Shown here one piece after another: positions 2,007 to 29,599 of a stretch of DNA of 37,262 nt; within the stretch, counting starts at the first letter, position 1, and the number at the start of each line of letters is the position of its first letter. The position numbers and the translations under genes were made by a program. The notes beneath the pieces were generated by a model. That model was not told the DNA's origin and searched no databases. It saw nothing but the letters and a program-made list of their open reading frames with translations. Origin of the DNA: Erysipelotrichaceae bacterium. GTDB taxonomy: Bacteria > Bacillota_I > Bacilli_A > Erysipelotrichales > Erysipelotrichaceae. The stretch lies in NCBI GenBank assembly GCA_022772735.1, contig JALEZD010000022.1, positions 1-37,262 of the forward strand, written 5' to 3'.

Positions 2007-5000
2007 TTATTGGTTTTCTTGTTTGTTTTTACTAATAATTAATACTATTAAAAATATACTTATTAATATCGTTATAATGAATAGAATAAAATAATTGTTA
2101 TCTAATAAATTTATAAATCTATGTTTTTTTATATCCTCAGATAATTTTTTTGAGCTATCATCTTTATTTTTTTCAGATTTATTATCATCTAATTTTAAAT
2201 CTTTTGTTTCATTTTTTGAAACTATTGTTTCTTTTTTTAAGTTTTCTTCTTTTTTTACTGTTGGAGAAGTTACAATATCATTTTTATATGATGTTTTTGT
2301 ATTATTATTTGTTGCTGAAGACACTATATCATACGTTTTATTTTTATTTTTTGTCGCAGAAGAAATTATATCATATGTATTGTTTTTACTTTTTGTTGCT
2401 GAAGTGATAAAATCACTGTTTTTTGTATTTAATGTTTTCTTAGTTGGTGATGTTACAATATCATTTTTATGATAAGAAGTAAGATCAAATTTTTCATTCT
2501 CAATAACAAAATCATTTAAATTTGGTGGAATTAAAATTGATAACCACTTAGTTTTATCTTCAGATACATTATAAAATAGGGTGTTTATACTTCCGTCAAT
2601 AAATTTTGTTTTTGATTTACTATCAATGATTATACTTTCATCTTTTAATTTACCTAATCTTGTATTAGAATTCCCACCACTTAAATATACATACCTTGTA
2701 TTTACTTTGCCAGTACCACTAATTGATTTCCCACCTTCTAAATATGTTCCATTTCCTCCACTAGCAATTAACTTTCCATTACCTTTAATTTCACTGTTAT
2801 TTAATATTATTGCATCTCCGCCTAATGTTGTTGTGGCATATAAACCACCACCAAAAACACCTAAAACACTATTATCTTTAATATCAATTGAACCATTTTC
2901 AACTTCCATTCCAATTTGACCAGAATATGGTCTATTCGTATTAGGATCATCTCCTGTAGGTGATTCATCCCCCTTTACAAAAACTTGCCCATTTATTGTT
3001 ACATTTCCATTTACTTTAATTACTGCATTTACATTCTTTCGTGCAACTTTCCCATCAGTTAGATTGTTTGTATTAGAATATATCAAACAATTTTCTAGTG
3101 TCGCACCATCATTTAAAACTATTTGTCCATTAATAGAGGAACCAGTTAAAAAATTATTTGTTAATGGATCATAGTTTACTTGAAGTTTGCCTCCATTTAA
3201 CACAGTTATTGTTCCATAAATTGAAGAGTCTCTAATATTTAATCTAGAATTATTTTTAACAATAATATTAACACTACTTAAAACTTTCATATTAACAAGT
3301 GTTAAATCTGTATTATCATCAATAATTAATGTTTGTTTTATTTCAGGATTTGCATCACCCAAAACACCATATGTCCCTGAAGCGTGTGAACCATACCATG
3401 CTTTAATTTCTCTAGGTACAGTAACTGTTTCATTATCTGAAAACTTTGAAATATACCATGGTTTCATGTCCCATATATATTTGCCATCTTCCATTTTTTT
3501 AGCATTACTTAATTTTAAATGATTAACTAGCATTTCAGATTGTGAATATACTTCAAAAAACAATTCATTACTTACTGCTTTTCTTCCAAGTTCATCTACA
3601 ATTTCAACTTTAACTGGATATACACCGATATTTTTTGGTGTTCCTGATAAAGTTAATTTACCTGAAGAAATAGAATAAACACCTTTCATACCACTTCTTT
3701 CGTCAATAATAACCTTTGATTTTGTTGCATCAACTTTAATATGTTTAAGTGTTGATAAGTTTTTCCAACTTTCTTCTTTTAATTCTTTATCTTCACTAAC
3801 TTCAATTACAACATCTGAATTTTGATTAACACTTGCGGAAGATGATGCACCACTAATTGCATCATAACCTTTCTGATTTACCATTGCATTTTCAAAATAA
3901 CCTTTAATTCTAATATTAAGTGGCAATATATCTTCATTATTATTTTCAATAGGTAAATGTTCTATTACATATGTATCCTTGTCTTTGTTTTTTTCTTTAA
4001 TTTTAATATGAAATACAATCTTACCATCTATTGCAATCTTAACAATATCATTTGATTTTAATGTTCCAATCTGAATTTCTGAATCTTCCAAATAATAATT
4101 AGTACTTGGATTAAACACACCTCCACTACTAGATGATTTAGAATAATATTTGTCATTTACTTTTATACTGCTTACATTTTTTATTAAAGATTTATTTTTT
4201 AAAATAATTGAATGCCTGAATTTTTTATCTTCTACTGAAATTTCTATTTCTTTTTCAGTATCATCAGTATTTATAATATATTTTTCATTAGTTTTTTCTA
4301 AATTCAAAATATTTTGATATTTATTTAAATCTGTAATCTTATAGTTTAAATTATCTCTATCTTTTGAAACTATAGTAATTACATTGTCTTTTTCAAGTTG
4401 ATTTATGTAAAGTTTTGAATTTTCATCTATTAAATATTCTTTATTTAAATAAGATAAACTTGTATTATTAATTTTTTTATATTCTACATTATTAACTAAA
4501 ATATTAGTAATATTTTTTACATAATCAATATTATCAAATTCAATCACATATCCATTTTTCACATTATCAAAAGAAGTTGTTGTTATATTTATATCTTTTT
4601 TTATTTCTTCTGAATTATCAATATTTGTTTCAACATAAGCATTACTGCTTTCTAAAGATAAAGTACCATCTATTGAATTAATAACTGTTATTTTATAATT
4701 TTTTTCTTCATAACCGTTAGAAACTATTTTAATAATATCGTTTACAATTAATCTGTTTATATATAACTCTTTATTCGATTTATTATATTGTGCAATATCA
4801 TCATTAAAGTTTTTTGAGTCAATATTTAGATATTTTACATTATTAACATATATTTCACTTATGTTATTTACATACTCAGCATTATTAAATTCTAAAACTC
4901 CAGACTTAAATAAACTAGAATATTTACTATTTAATAATTTTAATTCATTTTCTGTATTTTCTTTATCTAAAGTATTATTAGTTATCTCAAAAGATAAGTT

Positions 5001-5342
5001 ATTTTTATCTGCATTAATTACTTTAAAAATAAATTCATTCCCTTGATTTTTTATTTTTACAATATCATTATTATTAAGTTTATTTATAAAAAGAACATTA
5101 TCACTTATCAAATATTCATTATTAAATCCAAAATAATAACCTGTTGTTTTAATATATTCTGTATCATTTACACTTACTTTTTCAATTGTTGATACATAAT
5201 TATCATCACTAAATTTAAACCTATATCCCCCTCTTCCATAATCGTATCCACTCTCACTAATTCCTAAAGAATCAGCATATACATTTTTTGATAAACAAGT
5301 AAAAAACATTAAAAATGTTATTAAAGTTTTTATAATTTTCAT
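2007..5342 (-). CDS. Large anchored surface protein with HID/DUF1533-type repeats and a beta-helix-like region
   Basis: The 1111-residue protein has a signal peptide (1-24) and a C-terminal hydrophobic anchor (about 1084-1103) with a short cytoplasmic tail; no LPXTG is seen. Four repeats (about 40-120, 147-231, 263-349, 375-462) share the pattern tyrosine... I..I.VN...Y ...L.I......D.v.I. This resembles the Shr-type hemoglobin-interacting domain (HID, formerly DUF1533). Residues 494-500 read D-A-I-S-G-A-S, matching the FMN-attachment consensus, but no full FMN-binding domain surrounds them. Residues about 515-600 look Ig-like. Residues about 665-900 are short Asn/Gly-rich beta-strand repeats, as in parallel beta-helices. 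Residues 961-1028 hold five tandem D-[IF]-[IV]-[ST]-S-[AP]-T repeats, followed by a charged stalk rich in Lys, Asp and Ser. The start is ATG after GAGAGGTG. Heme or hemoglobin binding is inferred from the repeats only. Confidence 0.8.
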   Translation of the reverse strand: MKIIKTLITFLMFFTCLSKNVYADSLGISESGYDYGRGGYRFKFSDDNYVSTIEKVSVNDTEYIKTTGYYFGFNNEYLISDNVLFINKLNNNDIVKIKNQGNEFIFKVINADKNNLSFEITNNTLDKENTENELKLLNSKYSSLFKSGVLEFNNAEYVNNISEIYVNNVKYLNIDSKNFNDDIAQYNKSNKELYINRLIVNDIIKIVSNGYEEKNYKITVINSIDGTLSLESSNAYVETNIDNSEEIKKDINITTTSFDNVKNGYVIEFDNIDYVKNITNILVNNVEYKKINNTSLSYLNKEYLIDENSKLYINQLEKDNVITIVSKDRDNLNYKITDLNKYQNILNLEKTNEKYIINTDDTEKEIEISVEDKKFRHSIILKNKSLIKNVSSIKVNDKYYSKSSSSGGVFNPSTNYYLEDSEIQIGTLKSNDIVKIAIDGKIVFHIKIKEKNKDKDTYVIEHLPIENNNEDILPLNIRIKGYFENAMVNQKGYDAISGASSSASVNQNSDVVIEVSEDKELKEESWKNLSTLKHIKVDATKSKVIIDERSGMKGVYSISSGKLTLSGTPKNIGVYPVKVEIVDELGRKAVSNELFFEVYSQSEMLVNHLKLSNAKKMEDGKYIWDMKPWYISKFSDNETVTVPREIKAWYGSHASGTYGVLGDANPEIKQTLIIDDNTDLTLVNMKVLSSVNIIVKNNSRLNIRDSSIYGTITVLNGGKLQVNYDPLTNNFLTGSSINGQIVLNDGATLENCLIYSNTNNLTDGKVARKNVNAVIKVNGNVTINGQVFVKGDESPTGDDPNTNRPYSGQIGMEVENGSIDIKDNSVLGVFGGGLYATTTLGGDAIILNNSEIKGNGKLIASGGNGTYLEGGKSISGTGKVNTRYVYLSGGNSNTRLGKLKDESIIIDSKSKTKFIDGSINTLFYNVSEDKTKWLSILIPPNLNDFVIENEKFDLTSYHKNDIVTSPTKKTLNTKNSDFITSATKSKNNTYDIISSATKNKNKTYDIVSSATNNNTKTSYKNDIVTSPTVKKEENLKKETIVSKNETKDLKLDDNKSEKNKDDSSKKLSEDIKKHRFINLLDNNYFILFIITILISIFLIVLIISKNKQENQ
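2259..2462 (-). repeat. Five tandem D-x-x-[ST]-S-[AP]-T protein repeats
   Basis: Within the surface-protein gene, residues 961, 977, 991, 1005 and 1022 each start a copy: DIVTSPT, DFITSAT, DIISSAT, DIVSSAT, DIVTSPT. Spacings are 16, 14, 14 and 17 residues, and the linkers are rich in Lys, Asn and Thr. The copies lie about 60-120 residues before the membrane anchor. Confidence 0.85.
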
Positions 5343-5503: not shown

Positions 5504-8233
5504 TTATAGTTTTAAAGTTTCTAATACTTTTTGACATCTTGCACATACGCCGTTTTCATCATGTTCTTCACTTATATTCCAACATCTTGGACATACAACT
5601 CCACTCGCAAAACTTACTTCCACACTTAAATCATCATCTTCAATAAATTCTACTTTAGAAACTATTAACCATTGTGCAACATTACCTTCAAACAATTCAC
5701 TTAAAAGATTTATTAATTCTTTATTTGCCTTAACTGTTAATTTAGCTTCTAAAGGCTTTCCAATAATTTTTTCCGCTCTTGCAAGCTCTAATGACTTAAA
5801 TGCAACGTCTCTAAATTCGTTTACTTTAATAAATTTGCTTTTTATTTCTTCTGCATCAGTATAAACATTTGAAATAGGGAAATGTGTGTAATGTACAGAG
5901 TTTTGTTCATCATTATTAAATACATCCCAAATTTCATCCATAGTAAATACTAATATTGGTGCCCACAATTTACATAGCGCATCCACAACATTCCAAATAA
6001 CACTTTGTACTTGTCTTCTTCTTAAAGAATCTTTTGCCTCAATGTATAGAATATCTTTTGTGAAGTCCAAATAGTATGAACTTAATTCGTTAATCATTAA
6101 GTTAGTCATTTTCCCCGTTGCACCAACATAATCATATTTCATATAATCATCTACAACAGATTTTATAGTTTCATTTAATCTAACCATAATAAACTTATCA
6201 ACTGGTGCGAGTTTATCATAATTTATCATATCTTTTTTAGGATCAAAATCAGTTGGATTAATATTTCCTAACATAAATTTAAAAGTATTTCTAACTTTTC
6301 TATATTGCTCAGTGACTTGTTTTAAATTATCATCACCTATTCTCATATCTTGTTTAAAATCAACTGTTGCTGCCCAGAGTCTAAATATATCTGCTCCGCT
6401 CTTATTTATTACATCCATTGGATTTACAACATTTCCAATTGATTTACTCATTTTAACACCTTTAGAATCGTTTACATAACCATGTGATAACACTGTCTTA
6501 TATGGTGCTTTACCATTAATAGCTGTACCAATAATCAATGATGAGTTAAACCAACCTCTATATTGATCACTACCTTCAAAATATAAATCTGCTGGGTAAC
6601 TTAGTCCTCTTGCTTGTAATTCTTGATGTGAAGAACCAGAGTCAAACCAAACATCCATTATATCTGTTTCTTTTGTAAAATTACCATTAGGAGATTTATT
6701 ATTCTTATATCCATCTGGCAACAGTTCTTTTGCATCTTTCTCAAACCAAACATTTGAGCCATATTTACCAAATAAGTCTATTATATGGTCAAATACTTCT
6801 TTCTCAATTATAGGTGATTTATCTTCATTAAATATGATAGGAATTGGTACACCCCATAGTCTTTGACGAGATATACACCAATCACCTCTATCTTTTATCA
6901 TATTATATAGTCTTGCTTCTCCCCAATCATTTTCCCATTTAACTTCTTTTATTTGATTCAAAAGTTGTTCTCTAATTTTTTCTATACTACAAAACCATTG
7001 AACAGTAGCTCTAAAAATAACTGGTTTTTTTAATCTATCATCATGTGGATAACTATGGACAATATTTTCAATTGCTAATAAATGATTAGATGCATGTAAT
7101 AATGAAATAACCTTTTTACTACAATCATCAACAAATAGTCCTTCAAGCTCACTTCCTGCATCTTTAGTCATACAACCTTTTTCATCTACAGGGCAATATG
7201 CATCAAGACCATATTTAACTCCAACATAGTAGTCATCTAATCCATGACCTGGTGCTGTATGAACACATCCTGTACCATCTTCATCAGTTACATGGTCTCC
7301 TAAAATTATTATTGAAACTTTATCTTCATAAAGTGGATGTACACATTTAATGTTTTCAAGTTCACTTCCCTTATATGTCTTGATTACATTACATTTTTCT
7401 AAATTGAATTTTTCAATTAATTTATCTTTTAAACTTTCTGCAACAATTAATTTTCCCTTTTCGCTATCAATTACAACATAGTTTAAAAGAGGATTTAAAC
7501 ATATAGCTAAGTTTGCAGGGATTGTCCAAGGAGTAGTTGTCCAAATAACAAATTTTTCATCACCATTTAAAACATTATTACCATCTTTTACATCGAATGG
7601 TACATAAATAGTTGGATCTTTTTTATCCATATAAACAATTTCAGAATCTGCAACGGCTGTTTCTGAAAAAGGAGACCAATAAATTGGTTTTAAACCTTGG
7701 AAAATCAAACCATCTAATGCCATTTTTGAAAAAGCTTCAATTTGTCTTTTTTCAAAATCTTTTAATAATGTAATATATGGATTAGCATAATCTGCAATTT
7801 GACCAAGTCTTTTTTCTGTAGATTTTTGTAATTCAATTTGTTTAAAAGCATATTCCTCACAAAGTTTTCTAAACTCTGCTGCAGATATTTTTTTTCTATC
7901 AACACCTAATTTTTGAATAGCATTTTCTATAGGTAAACCATGAGTATCCCACCCTGGGAAAAAAGGTGTATAATATCCTGCCATCGCATGTGTTCTTACA
8001 ATAAAATCTTTTATACTTCTATTCATTGCAGTTCCTGCATGTAAATTTCCATTGGCATATGGTGGACCATCATGTAGAACAAATGGTTTTTCGTCTTTAT
8101 GGGCATTTAAAAACTTTTCATAATAGTTGTCATCTTCCCATTTTTTCAAAATAACGGGTTCTTTTGTAGGTAAATTTCCACGCATCTCAAAATCAGTACG
8201 TGGCATTAAAAGCGTTTCTTTGTAATCTGTCAT
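5504..8233 (-). CDS. ileS: Isoleucyl-tRNA synthetase
   Basis: Class I synthetase that charges tRNA-Ile in the cytoplasm, about 909 residues, the usual length for the bacterial zinc-containing type. Visible features: N-terminal D-G-P-P-Y-A-N-G-N-L-H-A-G-T (HIGH region, here HAGT), W-D-T-H-G-L-P-I-E, the CP1 editing domain, D-Q-Y-R-G-W-F, the K-M-S-K-S loop, and a C-terminal zinc finger C-P-R-C...C-A-R-C. A longer frame starts with TTG at 8251, but that TTG lies at the edge of the ribosome binding site GGAGGAG. The ATG at 8231-8233 (M-T-D-Y-K-E) is correctly spaced, so I use it. Expression is controlled by the T-box leader just upstream. Confidence 0.97.
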   Translation of the reverse strand: MTDYKETLLMPRTDFEMRGNLPTKEPVILKKWEDDNYYEKFLNAHKDEKPFVLHDGPPYANGNLHAGTAMNRSIKDFIVRTHAMAGYYTPFFPGWDTHGLPIENAIQKLGVDRKKISAAEFRKLCEEYAFKQIELQKSTEKRLGQIADYANPYITLLKDFEKRQIEAFSKMALDGLIFQGLKPIYWSPFSETAVADSEIVYMDKKDPTIYVPFDVKDGNNVLNGDEKFVIWTTTPWTIPANLAICLNPLLNYVVIDSEKGKLIVAESLKDKLIEKFNLEKCNVIKTYKGSELENIKCVHPLYEDKVSIIILGDHVTDEDGTGCVHTAPGHGLDDYYVGVKYGLDAYCPVDEKGCMTKDAGSELEGLFVDDCSKKVISLLHASNHLLAIENIVHSYPHDDRLKKPVIFRATVQWFCSIEKIREQLLNQIKEVKWENDWGEARLYNMIKDRGDWCISRQRLWGVPIPIIFNEDKSPIIEKEVFDHIIDLFGKYGSNVWFEKDAKELLPDGYKNNKSPNGNFTKETDIMDVWFDSGSSHQELQARGLSYPADLYFEGSDQYRGWFNSSLIIGTAINGKAPYKTVLSHGYVNDSKGVKMSKSIGNVVNPMDVINKSGADIFRLWAATVDFKQDMRIGDDNLKQVTEQYRKVRNTFKFMLGNINPTDFDPKKDMINYDKLAPVDKFIMVRLNETIKSVVDDYMKYDYVGATGKMTNLMINELSSYYLDFTKDILYIEAKDSLRRRQVQSVIWNVVDALCKLWAPILVFTMDEIWDVFNNDEQNSVHYTHFPISNVYTDAEEIKSKFIKVNEFRDVAFKSLELARAEKIIGKPLEAKLTVKANKELINLLSELFEGNVAQWLIVSKVEFIEDDDLSVEVSFASGVVCPRCWNISEEHDENGVCARCQKVLETLKL

Positions 8234-8252
8234 ATAATCCTTCTCCTCCAAT

Positions 8253-8440
8253 AAAAAAACGTCCTAATCTAAGGACGTAAAATTACGCGGTACCACCTTA
8301 GTTCATCCTAGTAGGATGCACTTAATGCTTTAACGCAGCAAACGATTGCTAAACAATAAGTGATATCTATCTTATAACAAGTACCTATTTTCACCAAACA
8401 TAGGTTCTCTATAACTTGCTTTTAAGTGACGTGTCTTATC
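8253..8440 (-). promoter_or_regulatory. T-box leader (riboswitch) of ileS
   Basis: The minus strand between divIVA and ileS contains the T-box core AAGGTGGTACCGCG (8285-8298). It is followed by the terminator hairpin ACGTCCT...AGGACGT and a run of seven T (8253-8278). Upstream is a Stem I-like domain with a base helix GATAAG/CTTATT. A candidate specifier ATC (8362-8364), followed by the expected purine, would pair with the tRNA-Ile anticodon GAU. Uncharged tRNA-Ile would stabilise the antiterminator and allow ileS transcription. The leader begins at the divIVA stop codon. Confidence 0.93.
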
Positions 8441-8922
8441 TAATGCATTCTTTTTTCAGCTTCATCCAGCCACCTTAAATCAGGTAAATCTGGAAGTTTA
8501 AAATCTTCAATATTTTTATACATGATATCCAATTTTTCATGTAAATCTGTTTTCATTCCTTCTGCACTTGTAGATAATCTAGATAAATCAGTTAAAATTA
8601 ATCTAGAAATCGATAACGCTTCTTTTATAATTATATCTGCATTTTCCTGTGCAGTTTTAATAATAGAATTAGCTTCTTGTATTGCAGCTCTTGATATAAT
8701 ATCTGCAGATTTTCTATTGTTTTCATAATCATTATTTAGATTTACATATCTTGTTCTAAGTTCATCTAATAAAAGGGTTGATTGCTCAAGTTTTTGTGAG
8801 TATAGTTCAAGTTTTCTCTTTAAATCAGCAACTTGTTTTTCTAAATAATCAACTCTATCATCAACCGCAAATCTATCATACCCATTTTTCATGAGTCGAA
8901 ATTTTTGTTTATGACTTGTCAC
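8440..8922 (-). CDS. divIVA: DivIVA-like cell-division/polarity protein
   Basis: Cytoplasmic coiled-coil protein of 160 residues. The N-terminal K-F-R-L-M-K-N-G-Y-D-R-F-A-V-D-D-R-V-D-Y-L-E matches the DivIVA membrane-targeting segment (F...GYD..AVD...). A coiled coil covers about residues 25-95 and a helical tail follows. The longest frame starts at a TTG (8952) overlapping ylmH. A GTG at 8920-8922 lies 4-5 nt after AAAGGGGAG and leaves a 13-nt gap to ylmH, so I use the GTG. The order sepF-ylmH-divIVA-ileS is the classic end of the Gram-positive division cluster. Confidence 0.88.
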   Translation of the reverse strand: MTSHKQKFRLMKNGYDRFAVDDRVDYLEKQVADLKRKLELYSQKLEQSTLLLDELRTRYVNLNNDYENNRKSADIISRAAIQEANSIIKTAQENADIIIKEALSISRLILTDLSRLSTSAEGMKTDLHEKLDIMYKNIEDFKLPDLPDLRWLDEAEKRMH

Positions 8923-8935
8923 TATACTCCCCTTT

Positions 8936-9661
8936 CTAAATAAACTTTTCAATTCCTACCAAAATTTTATCTTTTTTTGTACTTTTTATTATACCTTTAT
9001 AAATAAAACGTCCTTTGCCTTTAATAGAAATTATACAGTCATTATTACACAACTTATTTATTTCTGCAATTACAATATGGTTAATCTTGACTCTGTCATC
9101 TTTTAGTATTTCTTGAGCTTCTTTTCTAGAACAATTCATAATTGCAGACACAATATTATCTATTCTTGGACTGCTTATAATTTTTTCAAAATACTGTGTT
9201 TTAACTATTCTATTTTTAAAAACATCACTAACCTCAAATTTTATTGTTATATTTTTTATCTCAATAAAGTTTTCTATTAAAAACCTCATAAAATTTTCAG
9301 TTGTATACAAATAAATAAACTCATCTTCAACAAAAAAGTCTCCAACTTGATTTCTGTTTATTGAAAGCGACATCAAAGCCCCTAAAATATCTCTGTGAGT
9401 TATACTATTGTATTTATTGTCAAATTTAGCTTTTAAACAAACAATATTAAAATTATTTATTTCACCAAAATAAGCTTTGCAACATTCGGCATTTTCATAA
9501 CCACCCCATATTGTAAATTTATATTTTTTGCCAACATAATTTTTTAAAATTGTTTGTTCTTCAGGTGTTAGAAAATTTGTTTCTGTTACAACATTATAAT
9601 CTTTTGATTGTTCAATTAAATCATCAATTCTAGATATTAATCGCTTATAATCAATATTCAT
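8936..9661 (-). CDS. ylmH: YlmH-like S4-domain RNA-binding protein
   Basis: 241 residues. The C-terminal S4 RNA-binding domain (about 165-241) begins S-P-R-I-D-N-I-V and includes N-C-S-R-K-E-A-Q-E-I-L. The N-terminal part fits the YlmH family, which binds the large ribosomal subunit and acts in ribosome-associated quality control in Bacillus; it sits in the division cluster by conserved gene order. The ATG overlaps the end of the downstream sepF copy by 11 nt (AATGAATATTGA), which suggests translational coupling. No strong ribosome binding site is seen. The yggT/ylmG gene usually found between sepF and ylmH is absent. Confidence 0.9.
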   Translation of the reverse strand: MNIDYKRLISRIDDLIEQSKDYNVVTETNFLTPEEQTILKNYVGKKYKFTIWGGYENAECCKAYFGEINNFNIVCLKAKFDNKYNSITHRDILGALMSLSINRNQVGDFFVEDEFIYLYTTENFMRFLIENFIEIKNITIKFEVSDVFKNRIVKTQYFEKIISSPRIDNIVSAIMNCSRKEAQEILKDDRVKINHIVIAEINKLCNNDCIISIKGKGRFIYKGIIKSTKKDKILVGIEKFI

Positions 9662-10055
9662 TGTTATCTAAACTTATTGCACCATCAACTCCTATTGAAC
9701 TTGGAGTAAGTAAAATTGTATTATGCGCAATCTTTTGTATAGTACCATCAAGCGCAAAAACTGTACCTGTTAAAAAATCTATTGTTCTTTGTGCATAATC
9801 CCTTTGTAAACGATGTAAATTCACTACACATGCTCTTCTTTGTTTTAAATGTTTTGCGATTTCTTCAACTTCATCAAAACTTCTTGGTTCAAATAAAACC
9901 ATTTTTGTATCTGAAGACATCTTATTTATTTTAGTACGAGGTTCTTCATAAGAACTAATTGCTTTTGCTTCCTCTCGTGTTATTTCTAATTCTTCTTCAA
10001 TTTCATCTGCTTCTTCGTTTTGGAATAATTTTCCAAACATATTTTTAATGCCCAT
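9651..10055 (-). CDS. sepF: SepF cell-division protein, copy 1
   Basis: SepF anchors FtsZ to the membrane and shapes the septum. This copy has 134 residues: an amphipathic N-terminal helix (M-G-I-K-N-M-F-G-K-L-F), an acidic linker (about 12-45), and the SepF core from about residue 50 (V-L-F-E-P-R-S-F-D-E ... F-L-T-G-T ... L-L-T-P). The start is the ATG at 10055, 5 nt after GGAGG; the longer in-frame ATG at 10067 overlaps that binding site. It has its own short leader behind an extended -10 promoter and is followed by ylmH. The core is almost the same as that of the upstream copy. Confidence 0.94.
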   Translation of the reverse strand: MGIKNMFGKLFQNEEADEIEEELEITREEAKAISSYEEPRTKINKMSSDTKMVLFEPRSFDEVEEIAKHLKQRRACVVNLHRLQRDYAQRTIDFLTGTVFALDGTIQKIAHNTILLTPSSIGVDGAISLDNNEY

Positions 10056-10075
10056 AATAACCTCCATTTTTAGTC

Positions 10076-10084
10076 ATTATATCA
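10076..10084 (-). promoter_or_regulatory. Extended -10 promoter of sepF copy 1
   Basis: TGATATAAT on the minus strand (TG-N-TATAAT), about 20 nt upstream of the start codon. No clear -35 is seen because the upstream DNA is the T-tract of the preceding terminator. Confidence 0.5.
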
Positions 10085-10097
10085 TATTTTTCACAAT

Positions 10098-10129
10098 AAA
10101 AAAAAAAGAGAATAAATACTTTTATTCTC
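10098..10129 (-). terminator. Strong terminator overlapping the end of sepF copy 2
   Basis: The 9-bp stem GAGAATAAA/TTTATTCTC (10121-10129 with 10108-10116, 4-nt loop) is followed by ten T on the minus strand. The stem includes the last codons and the TAA stop of the gene. Confidence 0.88.
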
Positions 10130-10544
10130 CAGAATGATCTAAACTAATTGAACCATCAACTCCTATTGAACTTGGAGTAAGTAAAATTGTATTATGCGCA
10201 ATCTTTTGTATAGTACCATCAAGCGCAAAAACTGTGCCTGTCAAAAAATCTATTGTTCTTTGTGCATAATCTCTTTGTAAACGATGTAAATTTACCACAC
10301 ATGCTTTTTTATGTTTTAAATGACGTGCAATTTCTTCTGCTTCATCAAAACTTCTTGGTTCAAATAAAACCATTTGTGTATTACCACTTGAAGTAACTTT
10401 TTTTACCTTTTCAACAGGTGCACTTCTTCTTACTTCTCTTGTCGGTTCTACTCGTCTATTGTCTTCTACATATTCATATTCATCTTCGTCTTCTACTTCA
10501 TCAATAGGTGCAACAAAGTTTAGTATCTTATCCTTCAAACCCAT
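10122..10544 (-). CDS. sepF: SepF cell-division protein, copy 2 (tandem paralogue)
   Basis: 140 residues, start ATG at 10544 (M-G-L-K-D-K-I-L-N-F) after GGAGGG. The longer frame to 10607 would translate through the promoter and is rejected. An amphipathic helix is followed by a very acidic stretch (D-E-V-E-D-E-D-E-Y-E-Y), then a basic linker, then the SepF core. The core matches copy 1 at 73 of 79 positions, including 51 consecutive identical residues, while the first 55 residues are unrelated. It has its own promoter and its own terminator, so it can be expressed separately. Whether the two copies form mixed polymers is not visible from sequence. Confidence 0.93.
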   Translation of the reverse strand: MGLKDKILNFVAPIDEVEDEDEYEYVEDNRRVEPTREVRRSAPVEKVKKVTSSGNTQMVLFEPRSFDEAEEIARHLKHKKACVVNLHRLQRDYAQRTIDFLTGTVFALDGTIQKIAHNTILLTPSSIGVDGSISLDHSGE

Positions 10545-10577
10545 ACTTAAATTCCCTCCATAAATACTGCTTGTAGT

Positions 10578-10607
10578 ATAATACAATATTTTAACAGAAA
10601 ATAACAA
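10578..10607 (-). promoter_or_regulatory. Promoter of sepF copy 2
   Basis: On the minus strand -35 is TTGTTA (10602-10607) and -10 is TATTAT (10578-10583), with an 18-bp spacer. It lies between the end of the DUF4173 gene and the sepF ribosome binding site. Confidence 0.5.
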
Positions 10608-22292: not shown

Positions 22293-22478
22293 AAAAAATG
22301 CATATATTACAAAATAAAATATACCTAAAATCAATAAAATAGGTGGAACAAATGTAATGAAGGCAGCAATAAACATTGCGATATAATCATCTTTCTCTAA
22401 TTTACTGAGATTTTCATCAATTTGTTTATCATCCAATTTTTGTTTATATTGATTTCTTTTTTTGATCCAATGCAACAT
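22284..22478 (-). CDS. Small membrane protein at the end of the opp operon
   Basis: 64 residues, no family recognised. A charged N-terminal helix (K-K-R-N-Q-Y-K-Q-K...) is followed by one long or two short hydrophobic segments (about 33-62) with a central P-P, ending F-F-N-R. It overlaps the last 35 nt of oppF in another frame. The ATG at 22478 follows AAAAGGA at short spacing; a TTG at 22496 is the alternative. The terminator overlaps its stop, which supports its being the real last gene of the operon. Confidence 0.6.
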   Translation of the reverse strand: MLHWIKKRNQYKQKLDDKQIDENLSKLEKDDYIAMFIAAFITFVPPILLILGIFYFVIYAFFNR

Positions 22479-23787
22479 AATGTCCTTTTTCAACAAGTGT
22501 CATTTTATTGTTGTTTTCATATATACCATCATCTGTAAACTGACGCTTAGCTCTGTTAGAATCATTTTCTATAGAATATTCTTCATCATAAATACTTACT
22601 TCTATATCTCTAGATTCCATAGATGGTATAGAACTTAATAACATCTTAGTATAAGCGTGTTGAGGATTATCAAATATATCATAGTTATCCGCAAGCTCAA
22701 CCATATTTCCAAAATACATAACACCAATTCTATCACAAATATTATTTATTACGCTTAAATCATGTGATATAAACAAATATGTTAAATTTTCTTCATTTTT
22801 TAGCTTTTGTAGTAACTCAATTATTTGAGCTTGAATACTAACGTCAAGTGCACTTACTGCTTCATCACACACAATAAACTTAGGTTTTAATGCTAGTGCT
22901 CTAGCAATACCAATTCTTTGACGCTGTCCACCTGAAAATTGGTGAGGATATCTGTGTATAAAACTTTTTTCTAAACCACATTTTATCATTGTTTCAACAA
23001 CATATTGTTCAAGTTCAACAGAATTCTTTTTAAACATTCCATGTGCAATTAAAGCTTCAGATATTATTTGTCCAACTGTCATCCTTGGATTTAGTGAAGA
23101 ATATGGATCTTGGAAAATTATTTGTATATCTCTTCTCATTACTCTTATTTCTTCATTTGTAAGTTTTGTTAAATCAATTCCATAATCTTTAAATGATTTT
23201 AACTCTTCATAATTTTCTGAATCTTTTTGTTTAAGTTCTAATTCAACAATTTTGCTTCTAACTTCATCTAATAAAGCTTTATCTTCATTAGATTTACTTT
23301 TCTCGTATGCAACACCATATTTATATTCATCTAAAAGTAAAGTTTTTGCATATTTAAATTCACTGTCACTTAGATTGTATAAAGGTCCTGAAAGGCGAGC
23401 TAAAACTCTATATTCTCTCATTGCTGCATCTAGCTTACTTTGAGAATTTTTTGCAATTGCATTCTCTTTATTTTTAATAAATTTACTTCTATAACTTTCA
23501 AAGTTATTTAAATATTTGAGAATATATTTAGGTTGAAACTCATATATACTTCTACCATAATATATTGTATTTCCTCTATCTTGTTTATATAGTTGTAAGA
23601 TAACCCTTCCTAAAGTTGATTTCCCACATCCACTTTCACCAACAAGTCCAAATGTTTCACTTTCATATATTTCGATATCAATGCCATTATTAGCTTTTAA
23701 AAACTTAGGTTTAGAAAATAATTTACTTCCACTTGAAATAGGGAAATACTGTTTTAAATCTTCTGTCTTAATTAATATCTTGCTCAT
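22444..23787 (-). CDS. oppF: Oligopeptide ABC transporter ATPase OppF, with insertion
   Basis: 447 residues, about 120 longer than usual. Walker A is G-E-S-G-C-G-K-S-T (50-58). The Q-loop region I-I-F-Q-D-P-Y-S-S-L-N-P starts at about 223, the signature is F-S-G-G-Q-R-Q-R, and Walker B is F-I-V-C-D-E (304-309). About 120 mostly helical, charged residues (82-205) are inserted between Walker A and the Q-loop, where normal OppF has about 30. The C-terminal G-H-Y-V-A is typical. ATG follows AAGGGGAAA, 3 nt after the oppD stop. It forms the ATPase heterodimer with OppD. Confidence 0.95.
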   Translation of the reverse strand: MSKILIKTEDLKQYFPISSGSKLFSKPKFLKANNGIDIEIYESETFGLVGESGCGKSTLGRVILQLYKQDRGNTIYYGRSIYEFQPKYILKYLNNFESYRSKFIKNKENAIAKNSQSKLDAAMREYRVLARLSGPLYNLSDSEFKYAKTLLLDEYKYGVAYEKSKSNEDKALLDEVRSKIVELELKQKDSENYEELKSFKDYGIDLTKLTNEEIRVMRRDIQIIFQDPYSSLNPRMTVGQIISEALIAHGMFKKNSVELEQYVVETMIKCGLEKSFIHRYPHQFSGGQRQRIGIARALALKPKFIVCDEAVSALDVSIQAQIIELLQKLKNEENLTYLFISHDLSVINNICDRIGVMYFGNMVELADNYDIFDNPQHAYTKMLLSSIPSMESRDIEVSIYDEEYSIENDSNRAKRQFTDDGIYENNNKMTLVEKGHYVALDQKKKSI

Positions 23788-23790
23788 TAA

Positions 23791-24732
23791 TTATTTCCCC
23801 TTTCTATAACATCTAATGAAATGATTTTCTTCAACTTCATATAATTCTGGTTCTTGGTTTTCAATTTCTTCAAAAGTATATTCCTCTGGAAGAATTAATG
23901 GATTATGATTCAAGAAATTTGTTTCATCTCTTAGTCTTGTTTTTATTCTAGGTATTGCCTTTAACAAGCTTAAAGTGTATGGATGTAAAAATTTATTTTT
24001 TTCAAATAATAATTCTCTTGGAGCACTTTCAACTATCTTACCTTTATACATTACAACTATGTCATCTGCCATTTGGTTAATTACCCCTAAATCATGTGTT
24101 ATAAACATAATTGATGTTCCTGTTTCTTTCTTAAGTTCATTCATTAATTTTAATATTTGAGCTTGAATTGTAACATCTAAGGCTGTAGTTGGTTCATCTG
24201 CAATTAATAATTTTGGCTTACATGCAAGAGCCATTGCTATCATAACCCTTTGACGCATACCACCAGATAATTGGAATGGATAAGATTTGTTTACATTTTC
24301 AGGGTTATTAATTCTTACAAGTTTCAACATTTCTAATGCTCTATCTTCTGCATCTTTTTTACTTAATCCTTGATGTAACATTAAAACTTCACTTATTTGC
24401 TTATTTATTGTAAAAACAGGATTTAATGAAGTCATTGGTTCCTGAAATATTACTGAAACATCATTACCTCTAATTTTAGCCATTTCAGTCTCGGAGAAAT
24501 TAGTTATATCAACTCCATCAAAAATTATTTGACCATCATAAATTTTTTGATTTTTTTCAAAAAGCTTTAATATTGACATTGCAGTTTGAGATTTTCCGCT
24601 TCCACTTTCACCAACAACCCCAAGTGTTCTTCCATGTTCAAGAGAAAAGCTAACACCATTTACTGCTTTAACCAAACCTTTTTTTGTATCAAAGTAAGTA
24701 TGTAAATTTTTAATTTCTATTAATTTTGCCAT
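23791..24732 (-). CDS. oppD: Oligopeptide ABC transporter ATPase OppD
   Basis: 313 residues. Walker A is G-E-S-G-S-G-K-S-Q (39-47), the Q-loop V-I-F-Q-E-P-M-T-S-L-N-P, the signature L-S-G-G-M-R-Q-R-V-M-I, and Walker B L-L-I-A-D-E-P-T-T-A-L-D. The OppD C-terminal domain is present and ends H-F-I-R-C-Y. ATG follows TAGGAGGTG, 11 nt after oppC. Confidence 0.96.
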   Translation of the reverse strand: MAKLIEIKNLHTYFDTKKGLVKAVNGVSFSLEHGRTLGVVGESGSGKSQTAMSILKLFEKNQKIYDGQIIFDGVDITNFSETEMAKIRGNDVSVIFQEPMTSLNPVFTINKQISEVLMLHQGLSKKDAEDRALEMLKLVRINNPENVNKSYPFQLSGGMRQRVMIAMALACKPKLLIADEPTTALDVTIQAQILKLMNELKKETGTSIMFITHDLGVINQMADDIVVMYKGKIVESAPRELLFEKNKFLHPYTLSLLKAIPRIKTRLRDETNFLNHNPLILPEEYTFEEIENQEPELYEVEENHFIRCYRKGK

Positions 24733-24743
24733 TATTACACCTC

Positions 24744-26564
24744 CTACTTCTCATTAGATTTAGGATCCATAGCTTCTCTAAATCCATCTCCAATTAAGTT
24801 TACCGATAAAACTGCAATAATTATCATCGCAGTAGGGAATACCCATCTCCACCAATAAATATCAACAACGCTTGCTTCTTGAGCATTTGTAAGCATATTT
24901 CCCCATGAAGGGATTGGCGATTGTATACCAAACCCTAAAAATGACAACCCAGATTCTGTAAGCATTGTTCCAGCATAACCAAGTGTAATACTTACAATCG
25001 CAATATTTAACACACTTGGAAGTATGTGTTTCAAAATAATTGTACTCTCTTTTAAACCTAACGCTCTTGCTGCTAATACAAAATCTTTTTCTCTTTCAAT
25101 TAAAATTTGCCCACGAATTAACCTTGAAAGACCAACCCATGAAAGTAATCCAATAAGCACCATTACTAAATACATTTTTTGTGTTGCAGTCATTCTATTA
25201 CCAATCGCAAAAGATAATGTCATTACAAGTGGTAAAAATGGTATTGAAGATATTATTTCTCCAATTCTTTGAATTAAATTATCAATCCAACCACCTACAA
25301 ATCCTGAAATCAATCCTGCACTCATACCTATAATAGATGTAATTAATACAGCAATAATACCAACGAATAAAGAAATTTTTCCTCCGTGGAATATTCTTGT
25401 AAGTAAATCTCTACCTAATTCATCACTTCCTAAAATAAAGCCTTTATTTCCCCAAGAACTTATATTACCAAATTCATCAACAGCATAGAATTGGAAGTAA
25501 TTTCCCATTAAATTTTCTACTTTACCTTTAAATGTAGGTACATTTAACTCTCCTAAAACATTTTTCCCAAGCATTTTAACTTCACCATTTTCTGTTAAAA
25601 GTGCAAAGGCATTATATCCCGCTTGAACTTGCACAATTTTATCAGTTATTTCTTCATTTTCACTTAGTAATAGTTTTGAACCACTATTCCCCCAAGTGTA
25701 AACTTTTCCATTTTCATCAATGGCAATAGCATTATTCTTATTTATAGCAATATCTACTACTTTTACAGAACCATCAGTTAATTCTGTAGGTAAAGTTGTT
25801 GCAACATAACCTTTACCAGCAATTCCCAATGTTCCATCATCTAATAAATATAAAACATTAAATTTACCAGCTTCTGCTTTTACTATTCTACCCATCCAGT
25901 CTTTTTTAACAATATCCTGACCTTGAGCTTGATCGCCCCAAACATAAGCTTTTCCATTTAGTGTTACAACTCCAGAAAAATCTTTACCTGCAAAAAGTTG
26001 TTTTACATTTCCAGTGATAACAGATGCAACTGAACTAGGAATATCTGCTTGATTAGCAATATTATTTCCCCATCCAATATATTCTCCACTAGTAAGTCTT
26101 GCGATTATAAATGAATCACCTACCGTAAAATCTTCAACTTTAGAGTTTTTAACTTTATCTGGAACTTTTTTTACATTTTTAATATCTACTCCCCATATAT
26201 GAAGTTTTCCATCATTATCTAAGGCAACACTAAATGATGTTCCTGATTCAATTTTCTTCAAATTTCCATTTAATTGTTTTGGAAAATTTAACATATTAGT
26301 TCCAGGAGCGATATTTCTTAGTTCAGGCTCGCTGTAGAAAAAATCAACAGGATTTAATGCAGCACCTATAACTATAAATAAAACTAATGATATAAATCCG
26401 ATAAGTCCTACCATTGCAAGTTTATTTTCAATAAAATTATTAAAAACAGCTCTTGTTGGTGTAATGATTGTACTATCATCTGTAACAGTTAAATTTTCAA
26501 TTTTCTTTTTAGTACCAAAAATTCCTAAGAAGGCACTAAATATTGATTTATTTTTTTTATTCAT
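24744..26564 (-). CDS. oppC: OppC permease with an inserted RCC1-like beta-propeller
   Basis: 606 residues, about twice the normal OppC length. A cytoplasmic N terminus with the OppC-like segment F-I-E-N-K-L-A-M-V-G leads into the first membrane helix (about 49-70). About 277 residues (97-373) follow before the typical G-S-D-E-L-G-R-D-L-L-T-R and the five-helix permease core (about 395-595), which includes the coupling-loop segment A-A-R-A-L-G-L-K-E. The inserted part has seven units of 39-44 residues starting near 101, 141, 185, 226, 265, 309 and 348. Each has the RCC1 pattern (V..v.aG...F...L...G.vy.WG). By topology it lies outside the cell, in the first periplasm-side loop. ATG follows AAGGAGG. 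The operon position between oppB and oppD supports the OppC role. Confidence 0.93.
   Translation of the reverse strand: MNKKNKSIFSAFLGIFGTKKKIENLTVTDDSTIITPTRAVFNNFIENKLAMVGLIGFISLVLFIVIGAALNPVDFFYSEPELRNIAPGTNMLNFPKQLNGNLKKIESGTSFSVALDNDGKLHIWGVDIKNVKKVPDKVKNSKVEDFTVGDSFIIARLTSGEYIGWGNNIANQADIPSSVASVITGNVKQLFAGKDFSGVVTLNGKAYVWGDQAQGQDIVKKDWMGRIVKAEAGKFNVLYLLDDGTLGIAGKGYVATTLPTELTDGSVKVVDIAINKNNAIAIDENGKVYTWGNSGSKLLLSENEEITDKIVQVQAGYNAFALLTENGEVKMLGKNVLGELNVPTFKGKVENLMGNYFQFYAVDEFGNISSWGNKGFILGSDELGRDLLTRIFHGGKISLFVGIIAVLITSIIGMSAGLISGFVGGWIDNLIQRIGEIISSIPFLPLVMTLSFAIGNRMTATQKMYLVMVLIGLLSWVGLSRLIRGQILIEREKDFVLAARALGLKESTIILKHILPSVLNIAIVSITLGYAGTMLTESGLSFLGFGIQSPIPSWGNMLTNAQEASVVDIYWWRWVFPTAMIIIAVLSVNLIGDGFREAMDPKSNEK
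25440..26267 (-). repeat. Seven RCC1-like repeats inside oppC
   Basis: Residues 100-375 of OppC. Repeated marks are V-A-L-D-N-D-G-K-L-H-I-W-G (unit 1), V-T-L-N-G-K-A-Y-V-W-G (unit 3), A-I-D-E-N-G-K-V-Y-T-W-G (unit 5) and A-V-D-E-F-G-N-I-S-S-W-G (unit 7). Units 2, 4 and 6 are more divergent but keep the spacing. Confidence 0.85.
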
Positions 26565-26576
26565 TTTTATACCTCC

Positions 26577-27551
26577 TTATTTCAATTTAACTCTTGGATC
26601 TACAAGTGCATATGCAATATCAGTAATTAAATTAGTCATTACATAAACAATTGAGAAAAATAAATTTAAACTTGTAATCATATCATAATCTAATGAACTT
26701 AAAGCTTCTACAAGAACTCTTCCCATTCCATTCCATGAGAATACAGTTTCAGTAATTACAGAACCCGCAAATAAACTACCAATTGAACCAATAACTATTG
26801 TAACAACAGGTATTAAAGCATTTCTAAATGCATGAGAATATACAATAACTTTTTGGCTTAATCCTTTAGCACGAGCAGTTCTGATAAAATCTTGACTTAA
26901 AACATCCAACATTGCACTTCTTACATATCTAATAGTTCCAGCAAGACTCATAATTGTTAAAGTCGTAACTGGTAATATTAAGCGTCTTGCCCAATCTATT
27001 AGATAAGCACTGCCTTTTAAACTAGCAGAAGGCATTGAGCCTGTAGGTAATAATTTAAGTTTTAATGCAAAAACATATATTAATAGCAAAGAGATAAAAA
27101 ATGACGGCACACTTGTTCCAATAAGTGAAAAAACTTGCCAAAATTGGTCATATAATGATCCACGCTTAACGGCAGACTTAATTCCAGCAAAAATTGAAAT
27201 AGTAAGAGAAAAGAACACTACGAAAACATTCAAAATAATGGTATTTTGAAGAGGTGTCTTAATAGCTGAAACAACAGATTTATTATAAGTCGTTGAAGTT
27301 CCTAAATCTCCTTTTGCAACTCTTGTTATCCACTTAATATACTGAATAGGTAAGGGTTTATCCAATCCATATGCAGCTGTCAATTCTTGTCTTAATCTAG
27401 TTTTTTCTTCAACTCTTGTAACTTTGCTTTGAATAATTTTTGTTTCAATTGGATCTCCAGGCATTATTTTTGTAATACCAAAAATCAATATTGAAATAGC
27501 AAACACAACAGGAATTAAAGATAAAATCCTTCTAATTATGTACTTTATCAT
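26577..27551 (-). CDS. oppB: Oligopeptide ABC transporter permease OppB
   Basis: 324 residues, normal length. The N-terminal helix (I-R-R-I-L-S-L-I-P-V-V-F) is followed by a loop and five further helices. The coupling segment R-T-A-R-A-K-G-L-S is at about 221-229, and F-S-W-N-G-M-G-R-V-L is typical. ATG follows AAAGGAGATAG; the oppA-oppB hairpin lies just upstream. Confidence 0.96.
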   Translation of the reverse strand: MIKYIIRRILSLIPVVFAISILIFGITKIMPGDPIETKIIQSKVTRVEEKTRLRQELTAAYGLDKPLPIQYIKWITRVAKGDLGTSTTYNKSVVSAIKTPLQNTIILNVFVVFFSLTISIFAGIKSAVKRGSLYDQFWQVFSLIGTSVPSFFISLLLIYVFALKLKLLPTGSMPSASLKGSAYLIDWARRLILPVTTLTIMSLAGTIRYVRSAMLDVLSQDFIRTARAKGLSQKVIVYSHAFRNALIPVVTIVIGSIGSLFAGSVITETVFSWNGMGRVLVEALSSLDYDMITSLNLFFSIVYVMTNLITDIAYALVDPRVKLK

Positions 27552-27634: not shown

Positions 27635-29599
27635 CTATTTAAGTTTGATTTGTTCAACTACATATACCCAACCGTTGAACGAAGTTGTAGGTAATTCTGC
27701 AACTTTATCTCCGTTGTAGTAATCACGATATACATTTGCATAAAGTGGCAAAAATGGAAGAATTTCATTGTAACGAGTTTGATATTCTAACCATAATTTA
27801 GAATATTCATCTCTTTGTGTTCTATCTAATTTTCTCATTTTTTCAGATAATTCATCTAATACTGGATCACTTATTTCCATTGGGTTTTCAGATGTTCCAG
27901 CCAAACGAGAATGGTTAGTTAGATATGGATCAAATATTGCCGTAAAGCTTGTTGCTAAGTTAAAGATATTATATCTATCTTCAGATGGGTGTTTAGACCA
28001 ATAGTAGTATTGATCGATTAATGCGTTCCAATCACCTAAAGTACTTTCATATTTGATACCAACTTTTTCACCATTAGTTGTTAAATTTGATTTTAATAAA
28101 TCAGTAACAGGGTTGTTTTCTGTACCGAAGTGTTTAATTACTAATTCTTCTTTATTTGCGTTGTATCTGCTTCCACTTCCAGCAACCCATGGAGTAGTTC
28201 CATCTGCTTGGAATTTATATTCAGATTGATCTAATTCTTTATTAGCTTCATCAATTGAGAAGTCATAACTATTTAATTCACTTAAAGCTTCTTTATTTTC
28301 GATATACATCCATTGTGCAGTAGCAACTTCTGCATTAACTGCAATACCATTTCCAGCTCCTAAGAACGAAGAAATTAAACTTTGTCTATCGATAATATGA
28401 GCAAGCGCTCTACGAACATGAACATCTTTTGTAGGACCATCTGTGAATCCCATAGGCATATGTCCATAACCTAATCTGTCATATTTTGTTGAAGGGAAAC
28501 CTTTTTCTTCAAGTTTTTCAACAATATCAGCTTGGAATTGAGCAGCAACAATATCAACTTCACCGTTAATTAAACGTTCACCAGCAAGGTTTGAGTTTGT
28601 ATTACCACGAATAATAATTGTTTCAATTGTTGGTTTGTTACCATCTTGGTCTCCAGCATAATTTGGATTTACTTTTAAAATTACTTCGTTATTTTCAAAT
28701 GATTCAAGTGTATATGGACCAGCCACTACAGTTGGTTTATGTAAATATCCATCTTCAGCAATAATAGCCTTAGCAACATCATCTAGATTAACACCTGTTA
28801 ATGTTGTACCATTATCATCACTTACGATTTCAGCACCTGATGCAAGAACATGTAATGGTGCAGGTTCAAATGTAACGTATAATAAATCATAGAAATAAGG
28901 TATAAAATCTTTAGAAATTGTTACTGTGAAAGTTAAATCATCAACTAGTTTTAACCCTTTGTGGTAACCATTTTCTCCTTCTTTTTCACCTAATTGTTCT
29001 TTTGCTGCCTTAACAACTTCTAATGCAGCATTGTATTCATTACTTCCTTCTTCTGCAGATTGTAATGTTTCATTAGCATCTTTTGTTGCTTCAACATATG
29101 CATCATAATTTTCATATAACACACCTGCTTTATAAGCATCTTCACCAATAACTGAACCGTCAGTTGCAACACTTGCACCAACACCAGCATATTCATCTGA
29201 TAGTTTTAATAATGTAGAGAATACATAGTCTTTTGCAGTTAAAGCTTCCCCATCAGACCATTTTAAACCTTCGTTTAGTTTAATTGTATAAACTGTATCT
29301 CCATTTGCATCAAGTTCATTTGTAACTTCTTTTACAAATGTTGAGTTAACTTTAAGCTCCCCAGAACCAGTTGTATAAACTGTACTTGCCTTACCTGTAA
29401 GAAGCATCTTAACATTAGCATCTTCATAAGTATTTCCAAAACCTTGGAAGAAGTTACCTTTAATTACGTTAGAATCAACGATTAACTGCCCACCAACTTT
29501 AGTTTCAGTAGAAGATGTTGAACTACTTGATGTTCCACTACAAGCAACAAGCATTAAAGACAATGTAGATAAACTAGCCACTTTTAGTAATTTTTTCAT
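27635..29599 (-). CDS. oppA: Oligopeptide-binding lipoprotein OppA
   Basis: 654 residues. The lipoprotein signal ends L-V-A-C (Cys20), followed by a Ser/Thr-rich linker, so it is anchored on the outer face of the membrane. The solute-binding family 5 fold is supported by L-N-E-G-L-K-W-S-D-G-E-A-L-T-A-K-D-Y (about 108-125) and the later V-R-R-A-L-A-H-I-I-D-R. A helical, charged stretch (about 165-208) looks inserted in the first lobe. It is the first gene of the opp operon, behind a consensus promoter and a leader of about 90 nt; the ribosome binding site is AGGAGGG. Confidence 0.95.
   Translation of the reverse strand: MKKLLKVASLSTLSLMLVACSGTSSSSTSSTETKVGGQLIVDSNVIKGNFFQGFGNTYEDANVKMLLTGKASTVYTTGSGELKVNSTFVKEVTNELDANGDTVYTIKLNEGLKWSDGEALTAKDYVFSTLLKLSDEYAGVGASVATDGSVIGEDAYKAGVLYENYDAYVEATKDANETLQSAEEGSNEYNAALEVVKAAKEQLGEKEGENGYHKGLKLVDDLTFTVTISKDFIPYFYDLLYVTFEPAPLHVLASGAEIVSDDNGTTLTGVNLDDVAKAIIAEDGYLHKPTVVAGPYTLESFENNEVILKVNPNYAGDQDGNKPTIETIIIRGNTNSNLAGERLINGEVDIVAAQFQADIVEKLEEKGFPSTKYDRLGYGHMPMGFTDGPTKDVHVRRALAHIIDRQSLISSFLGAGNGIAVNAEVATAQWMYIENKEALSELNSYDFSIDEANKELDQSEYKFQADGTTPWVAGSGSRYNANKEELVIKHFGTENNPVTDLLKSNLTTNGEKVGIKYESTLGDWNALIDQYYYWSKHPSEDRYNIFNLATSFTAIFDPYLTNHSRLAGTSENPMEISDPVLDELSEKMRKLDRTQRDEYSKLWLEYQTRYNEILPFLPLYANVYRDYYNGDKVAELPTTSFNGWVYVVEQIKLK

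Follow-up and report, generated by a model that had tools for sequence, protein, structure and literature searches.

A peptide importer permease of the Erysipelotrichaceae with a predicted RCC1/BLIP-II-type propeller in its first outer loop

Introduction

What would a propeller domain do inside the permease of a peptide pump? Opp and Dpp importers are well studied and their structures have been solved, and the OppC proteins of E. coli and M. tuberculosis, like E. coli DppC, have a short loop between the first and second transmembrane helices (TM1 and TM2). The window analyzed here (the whole stretch of 37,262 nucleotides, from a genome of 1.79 Mb) encodes an importer with the same operon and partners as those systems, but about 285 propeller residues (OppC residues ~88–372) lie between membrane helices 1 and 2. 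An initial annotation, made from the sequence, had placed a complete RCC1-like seven-bladed propeller at 25440–26267 of the reverse strand, an interval that corresponds to residues ~100–375 of the 606-residue OppC frame. Its author knew of no described peptide importer with a propeller in a permease loop. Our literature search, with most subscription journals outside its scope, found none either; it returned no match for RCC1 together with OppC, Erysipelothrix, an ABC permease propeller or a permease extracellular loop. The parts are of known kinds; what is new is their combination, its antiquity and its retention.

Results and Discussion

Fold of the insert

Pfam assigned OppC_N to residues 35–87 and BPD_transp_1 to residues 413–602 of OppC, with RCC1 repeats between them. 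Within the insert, RCC1_2 scored 87.9 bits (E = 2.7e-25; cut-off 22), while WD40_RLD scored 101 bits (E = 1e-28), which is under its gathering score of 150. The RCC1 profile search that the initial annotation had proposed thus gave high scores. When the insert was compared with PDB sequences, BLIP-II was the top match (E = 9e-17), and many RCC1, UVR8 and HERC2 chains came next. An HMM of the blade, derived from six homologues with the window sequence excluded, matched the insert seven times for a total of 109 bits; because 500 shuffled versions reached at most 9.4 bits, chance is excluded as the source of the repeats.

An AlphaFold2 (AF2) model of OppC, made from 32 homologues, had a mean pLDDT of 84 and a pTM of 0.77. 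Most blocks of the propeller had pLDDT values of 82–94; two, near residues 290–310, were at about 70. The model contains exactly seven three-stranded units (Table 1), spaced by 41, 44, 40, 42, 41 and 39 residues, which reproduces the spacing of 39–44 residues given beforehand. Five units have WG at their end and the other two AG and LG, as anticipated by the description of endings in WG or a degenerate form. The model was compared with solved structures by means of Foldseek and VIA-align 2. BLIP-II (3qi0_C) aligned to residues 90–363 of the model with a Z score of 31.0 and an rmsd of 2.0 Å over 253 residues at about 23–24% identity, and the alignments to closed BLIP-II covered 253–257 of 269–273 residues at 2.0–2.2 Å. 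Pfam, the shuffle control, the AF2 model and the fold comparison all agree on a complete propeller, and modeling of OppC alone, one of the checks suggested at the outset, predicts that it closes. We conclude that the insert is, as modeled, a closed seven-bladed beta-propeller of the RCC1/BLIP-II type.

The likeness to BLIP-II, RCC1, UVR8 and the RLDs of HERC2 lies in the seven RCC1-type blades and the closed ring. The setting differs: BLIP-II is secreted as a free protein and the RCC1, UVR8 and HERC2 domains are cytoplasmic or nuclear, whereas in OppC the propeller forms part of a membrane permease.

The permease core and the side of the membrane

Outside the insert, the protein has a six-helix core with an EAA coupling loop, which together with OppC_N and BPD_transp_1 identifies it as OppC, a permease of type I ABC peptide importers. 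E. coli OppC (8z21_B) aligned to residues 33–601 of the model over 278 of its 278 residues (Z = 29.9, rmsd 2.7, 35% identity). Because the insert matches BLIP-II and RCC1 and the remainder matches OppC, the propeller is predicted to sit in the TM1–TM2 loop and to leave the permease core whole. The initial annotation was right about the insertion itself, but its figure of about 277 residues between helix 1 and the segment GSDELGRD was too low: the distance from TM1 (residues 48–70) to residue 379 is 308 residues, of which some 285 form the propeller. The continuous frame and good ribosome-binding sites that it reported were also found, the site of oppC being aggagg. A chance fusion or a frame artefact is ruled out by the unbroken frame, the shuffle control and relatives with the same architecture.

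In the structure of E. coli DppBCDF, the TM1–TM2 and TM3–TM4 regions of DppB and DppC are periplasmic, while the TM4–TM5 coupling loop is cytoplasmic (PMC12136057). As OppC has the same permease core as the solved DppC, the propeller is predicted to face the outside of the cell, where it had been placed originally. For both the fold and the side of the propeller, our evidence is the predicted model together with solved relatives.

The opp operon

The oppC gene lies in an operon with oppA, oppB, oppD and oppF (Table 1), each of which starts behind a purine-rich ribosome-binding site. The same arrangement, OppA-OppB-OppC followed by OppD/OppF, occurs in 33 complete operons of propeller OppCs, and at all loci with flanking sequence the propeller oppC is found in an oppA-B-C-D/F operon. 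In three Erysipelothrix loci (L062, L070 and L081), the order of the ATPase genes after oppC is oppF-oppD rather than oppD-oppF. The proteins fall below the NCBIfam equivalog cut-offs, and peptide is the predicted class of substrate. OppA is a lipoprotein by its lipobox and hence should work on the same side of the membrane as the propeller.

Table 1. Features of the opp operon and of OppC (window coordinates; residue numbers are those of OppC unless stated otherwise)
Feature	Residues	Position	Strand	Description	Basis
oppF		22444..23787	-	447 aa; ATPase with ~110-aa insert	
oppD		23791..24732	-	313 aa; ATPase	
oppC		24744..26564	-	606 aa; peptide ABC importer permease with predicted inserted RCC1/BLIP-II-type propeller	
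TM2-TM6 module	387-602	24759..25406	-	with EAA-type coupling loop	BPD_transp_1; VIA match to 8z21_B
C-side linker	373-386	25407..25448	-	NKGFILGSDELGRD; free of indels in 44 homologues	alignment
Blade 7	349-372	25449..25520	-	F357, Q358, Y360, W371 strongly conserved	AF2, conservation, blade HMM
Blade 6	310-333	25566..25637	-	degenerate end LG	AF2, blade HMM
Blade 5	269-292	25689..25760	-		AF2, blade HMM
Blade 4	227-250	25815..25886	-	degenerate end AG	AF2, blade HMM
Blade 3	187-210	25935..26006	-		AF2, blade HMM
Blade 2	143-166	26067..26138	-		AF2, blade HMM
Blade 1	102-125	26190..26261	-		AF2, blade HMM
N-side linker	71-101	26262..26354	-	ordered; N84, P87, G88 conserved	AF2, alignment
TM1	48-70	26355..26423	-	helix, within OppC_N (35-87)	AF2
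oppB		26577..27551	-	324 aa; partner permease; keeps BPD_transp_1_N region	
oppA		27635..29599	-	654 aa; SBP_bac_5 peptide-binding lipoprotein; lipobox LVAC; sole Cys is OppA residue 20	

Several features of the partner proteins were observed in passing. The insert of OppF (about residues 80–200) lies inside the ABC domain, and mycoplasma OppF models (NF043078) are likewise much longer than E. coli OppF. OppD and OppF have just two and four scattered cysteines, respectively; the iron-sulfur motif of four cysteines found at the C terminus of E. coli DppD and DppF seems to be absent. OppA contains a charged insert of ~45 residues (about 160–210) that is absent from most OppAs of other propeller operons.

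Linkers and the pattern of constraint

The linkers that join the propeller to the membrane helices are ordered in the AF2 model. Across 44 homologues, both linkers and the permease module are free of insertions of four or more residues; nearly all long insertions, of up to 164 residues, fall in the loops that connect blades 2 through 5. Conservation peaks in the C-side linker (JSD of 0.72 vs. 0.44 for the loops between blades) and at the turns and WG positions of blades 1, 2 and 7. Neither face of the propeller is favored, since the AB and BC loops are conserved to a similar degree (0.54 and 0.55). Such constraint matches a domain whose pose is fixed and whose far edge is free.

Two enlarged variants come from metagenome-assembled genomes of Acholeplasmataceae. 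One (L094, positions 5619–9050; the same gene as L125) encodes a propeller OppC of 1144 residues. A beta-rich part separates its blades 2 and 3, and a long helical coiled coil separates blades 4 and 5; in a model of moderate confidence (pLDDT 67.5), the protein is predicted to keep the seven-blade pattern. Another (L092, positions 7722–10076) is 785 residues long and has one or more extra domains between blades 2–5.

Distribution and origin

Is the propeller peculiar to a single genome? Strong matches to the insert (E ≤ 1e-40) were found in 53 of 273 Erysipelotrichaceae genomes, representing 16 genera. A looser tally at E = 1e-10 comes to 79 genomes of the family and includes weak matches; ten matches examined in the range 1e-11 to 1e-19 (L108–L117) all proved not to be OppC frames, and the weak matches were left uncounted. 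Six other genera of the family have full-length relatives with 43–50% identity, and propeller OppCs are also present in other families of the class. In evenly drawn samples, 20 of 395 genomes of the class and 16 of 392 genomes of the phylum were positive. An alignment-based scan of 84,980 species genomes for the junction motif located 34 loci, a count resting on one motif, so that far relatives may be missed; a single-protein query of the species genomes returned no matches, while the alignment query succeeded. The named carriers are Dielma fastidiosa, Longicatena caecimuris, Erysipelothrix tonsillarum, E. urinaevulpis, E. inopinata and Peloplasma aerotolerans. The 53 genomes of the family and the named isolates dispose of the notion that the architecture is an oddity of one assembly. 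The search of homologues proposed initially thus shows an insertion that is conserved in relatives across genera, families and isolates.

Two of the three searched genomes of the source genus have no propeller OppC, and the propeller is therefore patchy between genomes. A tree was computed from the C-terminal module of OppC with the insert columns left out. All 47 propeller rows fell into one clade (support 99/98), with one change of state, so that several independent insertions are ruled out within the sample. In a core-only search of the 273 family genomes, the 52 matches at E ≤ 4e-81 were all frames of 576–641 residues. The next matches, at 50% identity or less, were plain OppCs of ~300 residues, the divergent propeller forms G142 and G147 (551 and 560 residues) and a group of 513–583 residues; OppC frames in this last size range were seen in ~16 genomes of the family. 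Neither the tree nor the core search yielded a propeller-less member of the propeller clade. Taken together, the tree and the core search indicate that the patchiness is that of a whole importer, present or absent, not of the propeller alone. From these comparisons of sequence, the propeller is a single ancient insertion that was kept in every descendant found.

The same loop holds another insert elsewhere in the family. Two OppCs of the same importer family, taken from the group of 513–583 residues (L126, G006:C134; L127, G017:C64), have a ~200-residue, non-RCC1 insert between TM1 and TM2; it is unrelated in sequence to the propeller and has no Pfam match, and the two proteins form their own clade in the OppC tree. 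The site thus holds a second kind of outer domain in that clade.

A domain that has persisted through speciation after a single gain, even in a wall-less mollicute and in isolates from the gut that can be cultured, must serve transport or the cell surface. The locus thus points to an undescribed working part of a peptide importer. It is a testable example of how a pump can acquire an outer module while its cycle stays intact, and it flags a domain exposed on the surface of Erysipelothrix and of gut Erysipelotrichaceae.

Proposed role

Two importers offer precedents. MalF-P2 is likewise a folded outer domain between two helices of one importer permease, and it contacts the binding protein MalE (PMC3150292). 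It belongs to another importer, is placed between other helices and is not a propeller, and the contact with MalE is known there whereas one with OppA is only inferred here; MalF-P2 was not among the structural matches listed for the OppC model, and the likeness is one of role only. The second precedent is the scoop of DppB, also an outer permease element after TM1 that engages the binding protein, in this instance DppA; the motif is held in the BPD_transp_1_N region of DppB (PMC12136057). The scoop is a helix-loop-helix of ~30 residues in the B subunit, whereas the OppC propeller is a domain in the C subunit. Because OppB retains BPD_transp_1_N, the scoop region, the propeller would be an addition to that element and not a replacement of it.

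By analogy with these systems, the propeller may well serve as a rigid outer domain for docking or gating above the mouth of the translocation pathway, in contact with OppA and/or OppB; we give this reading about an even chance. The propeller would be a permanent outer domain, seated beside the mouth by linkers of fixed length, and its main job would be contact with the lipoprotein OppA, with the outer side of OppB or with both during the delivery of peptide by OppA. On the OppC side it would thereby dock and gate, much as MalF-P2 does for MalE and the DppB scoop for DppA. The loops of blades 2–5 would point away from the anchored edge and be free for lineage-specific extras. It is the contact with OppA and/or OppB that is the inferential step here, added to what is reported above on fold, side, operon, origin, retention and linkers. 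The correlation of distance matrices between propeller and OppA was low (partial r = 0.13, p = 0.17), and the test is not specific, since the values for OppB (0.37) and the cytoplasmic OppF (0.49) were higher. Two further points count against a docking role: most peptide importers do without any domain of this kind, and OppB retains the scoop region. The similar conservation of the AB and BC loops also fails to single out a contact face. A bolder version, which we regard as less likely than not, would define a class of importers for which an outer propeller carried by the permease is obligate. This subunit would position or gate OppA, or else a second partner, above the pore, and by taking in domains between its blades it would also serve as a general outer chassis.

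The propeller might instead be a platform for partners. It would recruit some other protein outside the cell or a structure on its surface, for example a secreted peptidase, a second binding protein or a glycan, such that peptides are made or gathered at the pump and OppA is not the main contact. Propellers of the RCC1 and BLIP-II kinds typically serve as scaffolds that bind proteins (PMC9218822), and blades 2–5 accept whole accessory parts, including the beta-rich part and the coiled coil of the 1144-residue protein. The strictest conservation, however, is found at the anchored side (the linkers and blades 1 and 7) and not on a free surface, and no constantly linked gene beyond oppA-B-C-D-F was present at the loci read, in a search that covered the opp genes only. 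We consider a platform unlikely, although it is the foremost of the alternatives.

Direct capture of substrate is improbable. In this reading, the central channel or one face of the propeller would bind peptides and hand them on to OppA or the pore. One AB-turn residue per blade is conserved in the family (F, H, Y, N, N/T, H/N and Q), forming a differentiated ring near the channel, but this is an RCC1 consensus position and the ring may be structural. Moreover, the substrate is already bound by OppA, and, to our knowledge, none of the solved RCC1 relatives among the matches listed is a receptor for peptide uptake.

A passive insertion, that is, a domain tolerated without any task in transport or acting only as a stabilizer or shield, is somewhat more improbable again: the different ~200-residue domain in the same loop of other family members indicates that the site tolerates inserts, but the single ancient origin, the lack of any observed loss, the conserved seven blades and the fixed linkers argue for selection.

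Finally, inhibition of penicillin-binding proteins or the cell wall in the way of BLIP-II, or anchorage to them, is exceedingly improbable, for although BLIP-II is the closest solved relative in both fold and sequence, the two share only about 23% identity, a propeller OppC occurs in Peloplasma aerotolerans (L085), which lacks a cell wall (PMC11122141), and four propeller genomes that are 94–99% complete have no PF00905 transpeptidase, the other nine tested having two to five. On the same evidence, binding of class A beta-lactamases or penicillin-binding proteins in the manner of BLIP-II is unlikely as a general role, and the wall component named initially among the possible partners is an unlikely one.

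Other observations in the window and the source genome

A second protein with RCC1 repeats is encoded in the source genome (L148; G000:C16, ~1470–2000). It has ~700 residues, with an N-terminal XRE helix-turn-helix, a hydrophobic stretch, RCC1 repeats, an FN3 domain and List_Bact repeats, and it has the look of a regulator anchored in the membrane that carries a propeller on the outside. Within the window, a reverse-strand open frame of 1111 residues (2007–5342) has no Pfam match at E = 0.001, and two adjacent SepF genes (9651–10067 and 10122–10607, reverse strand) lie in a cell-division cluster, both with E values of about 1e-25.
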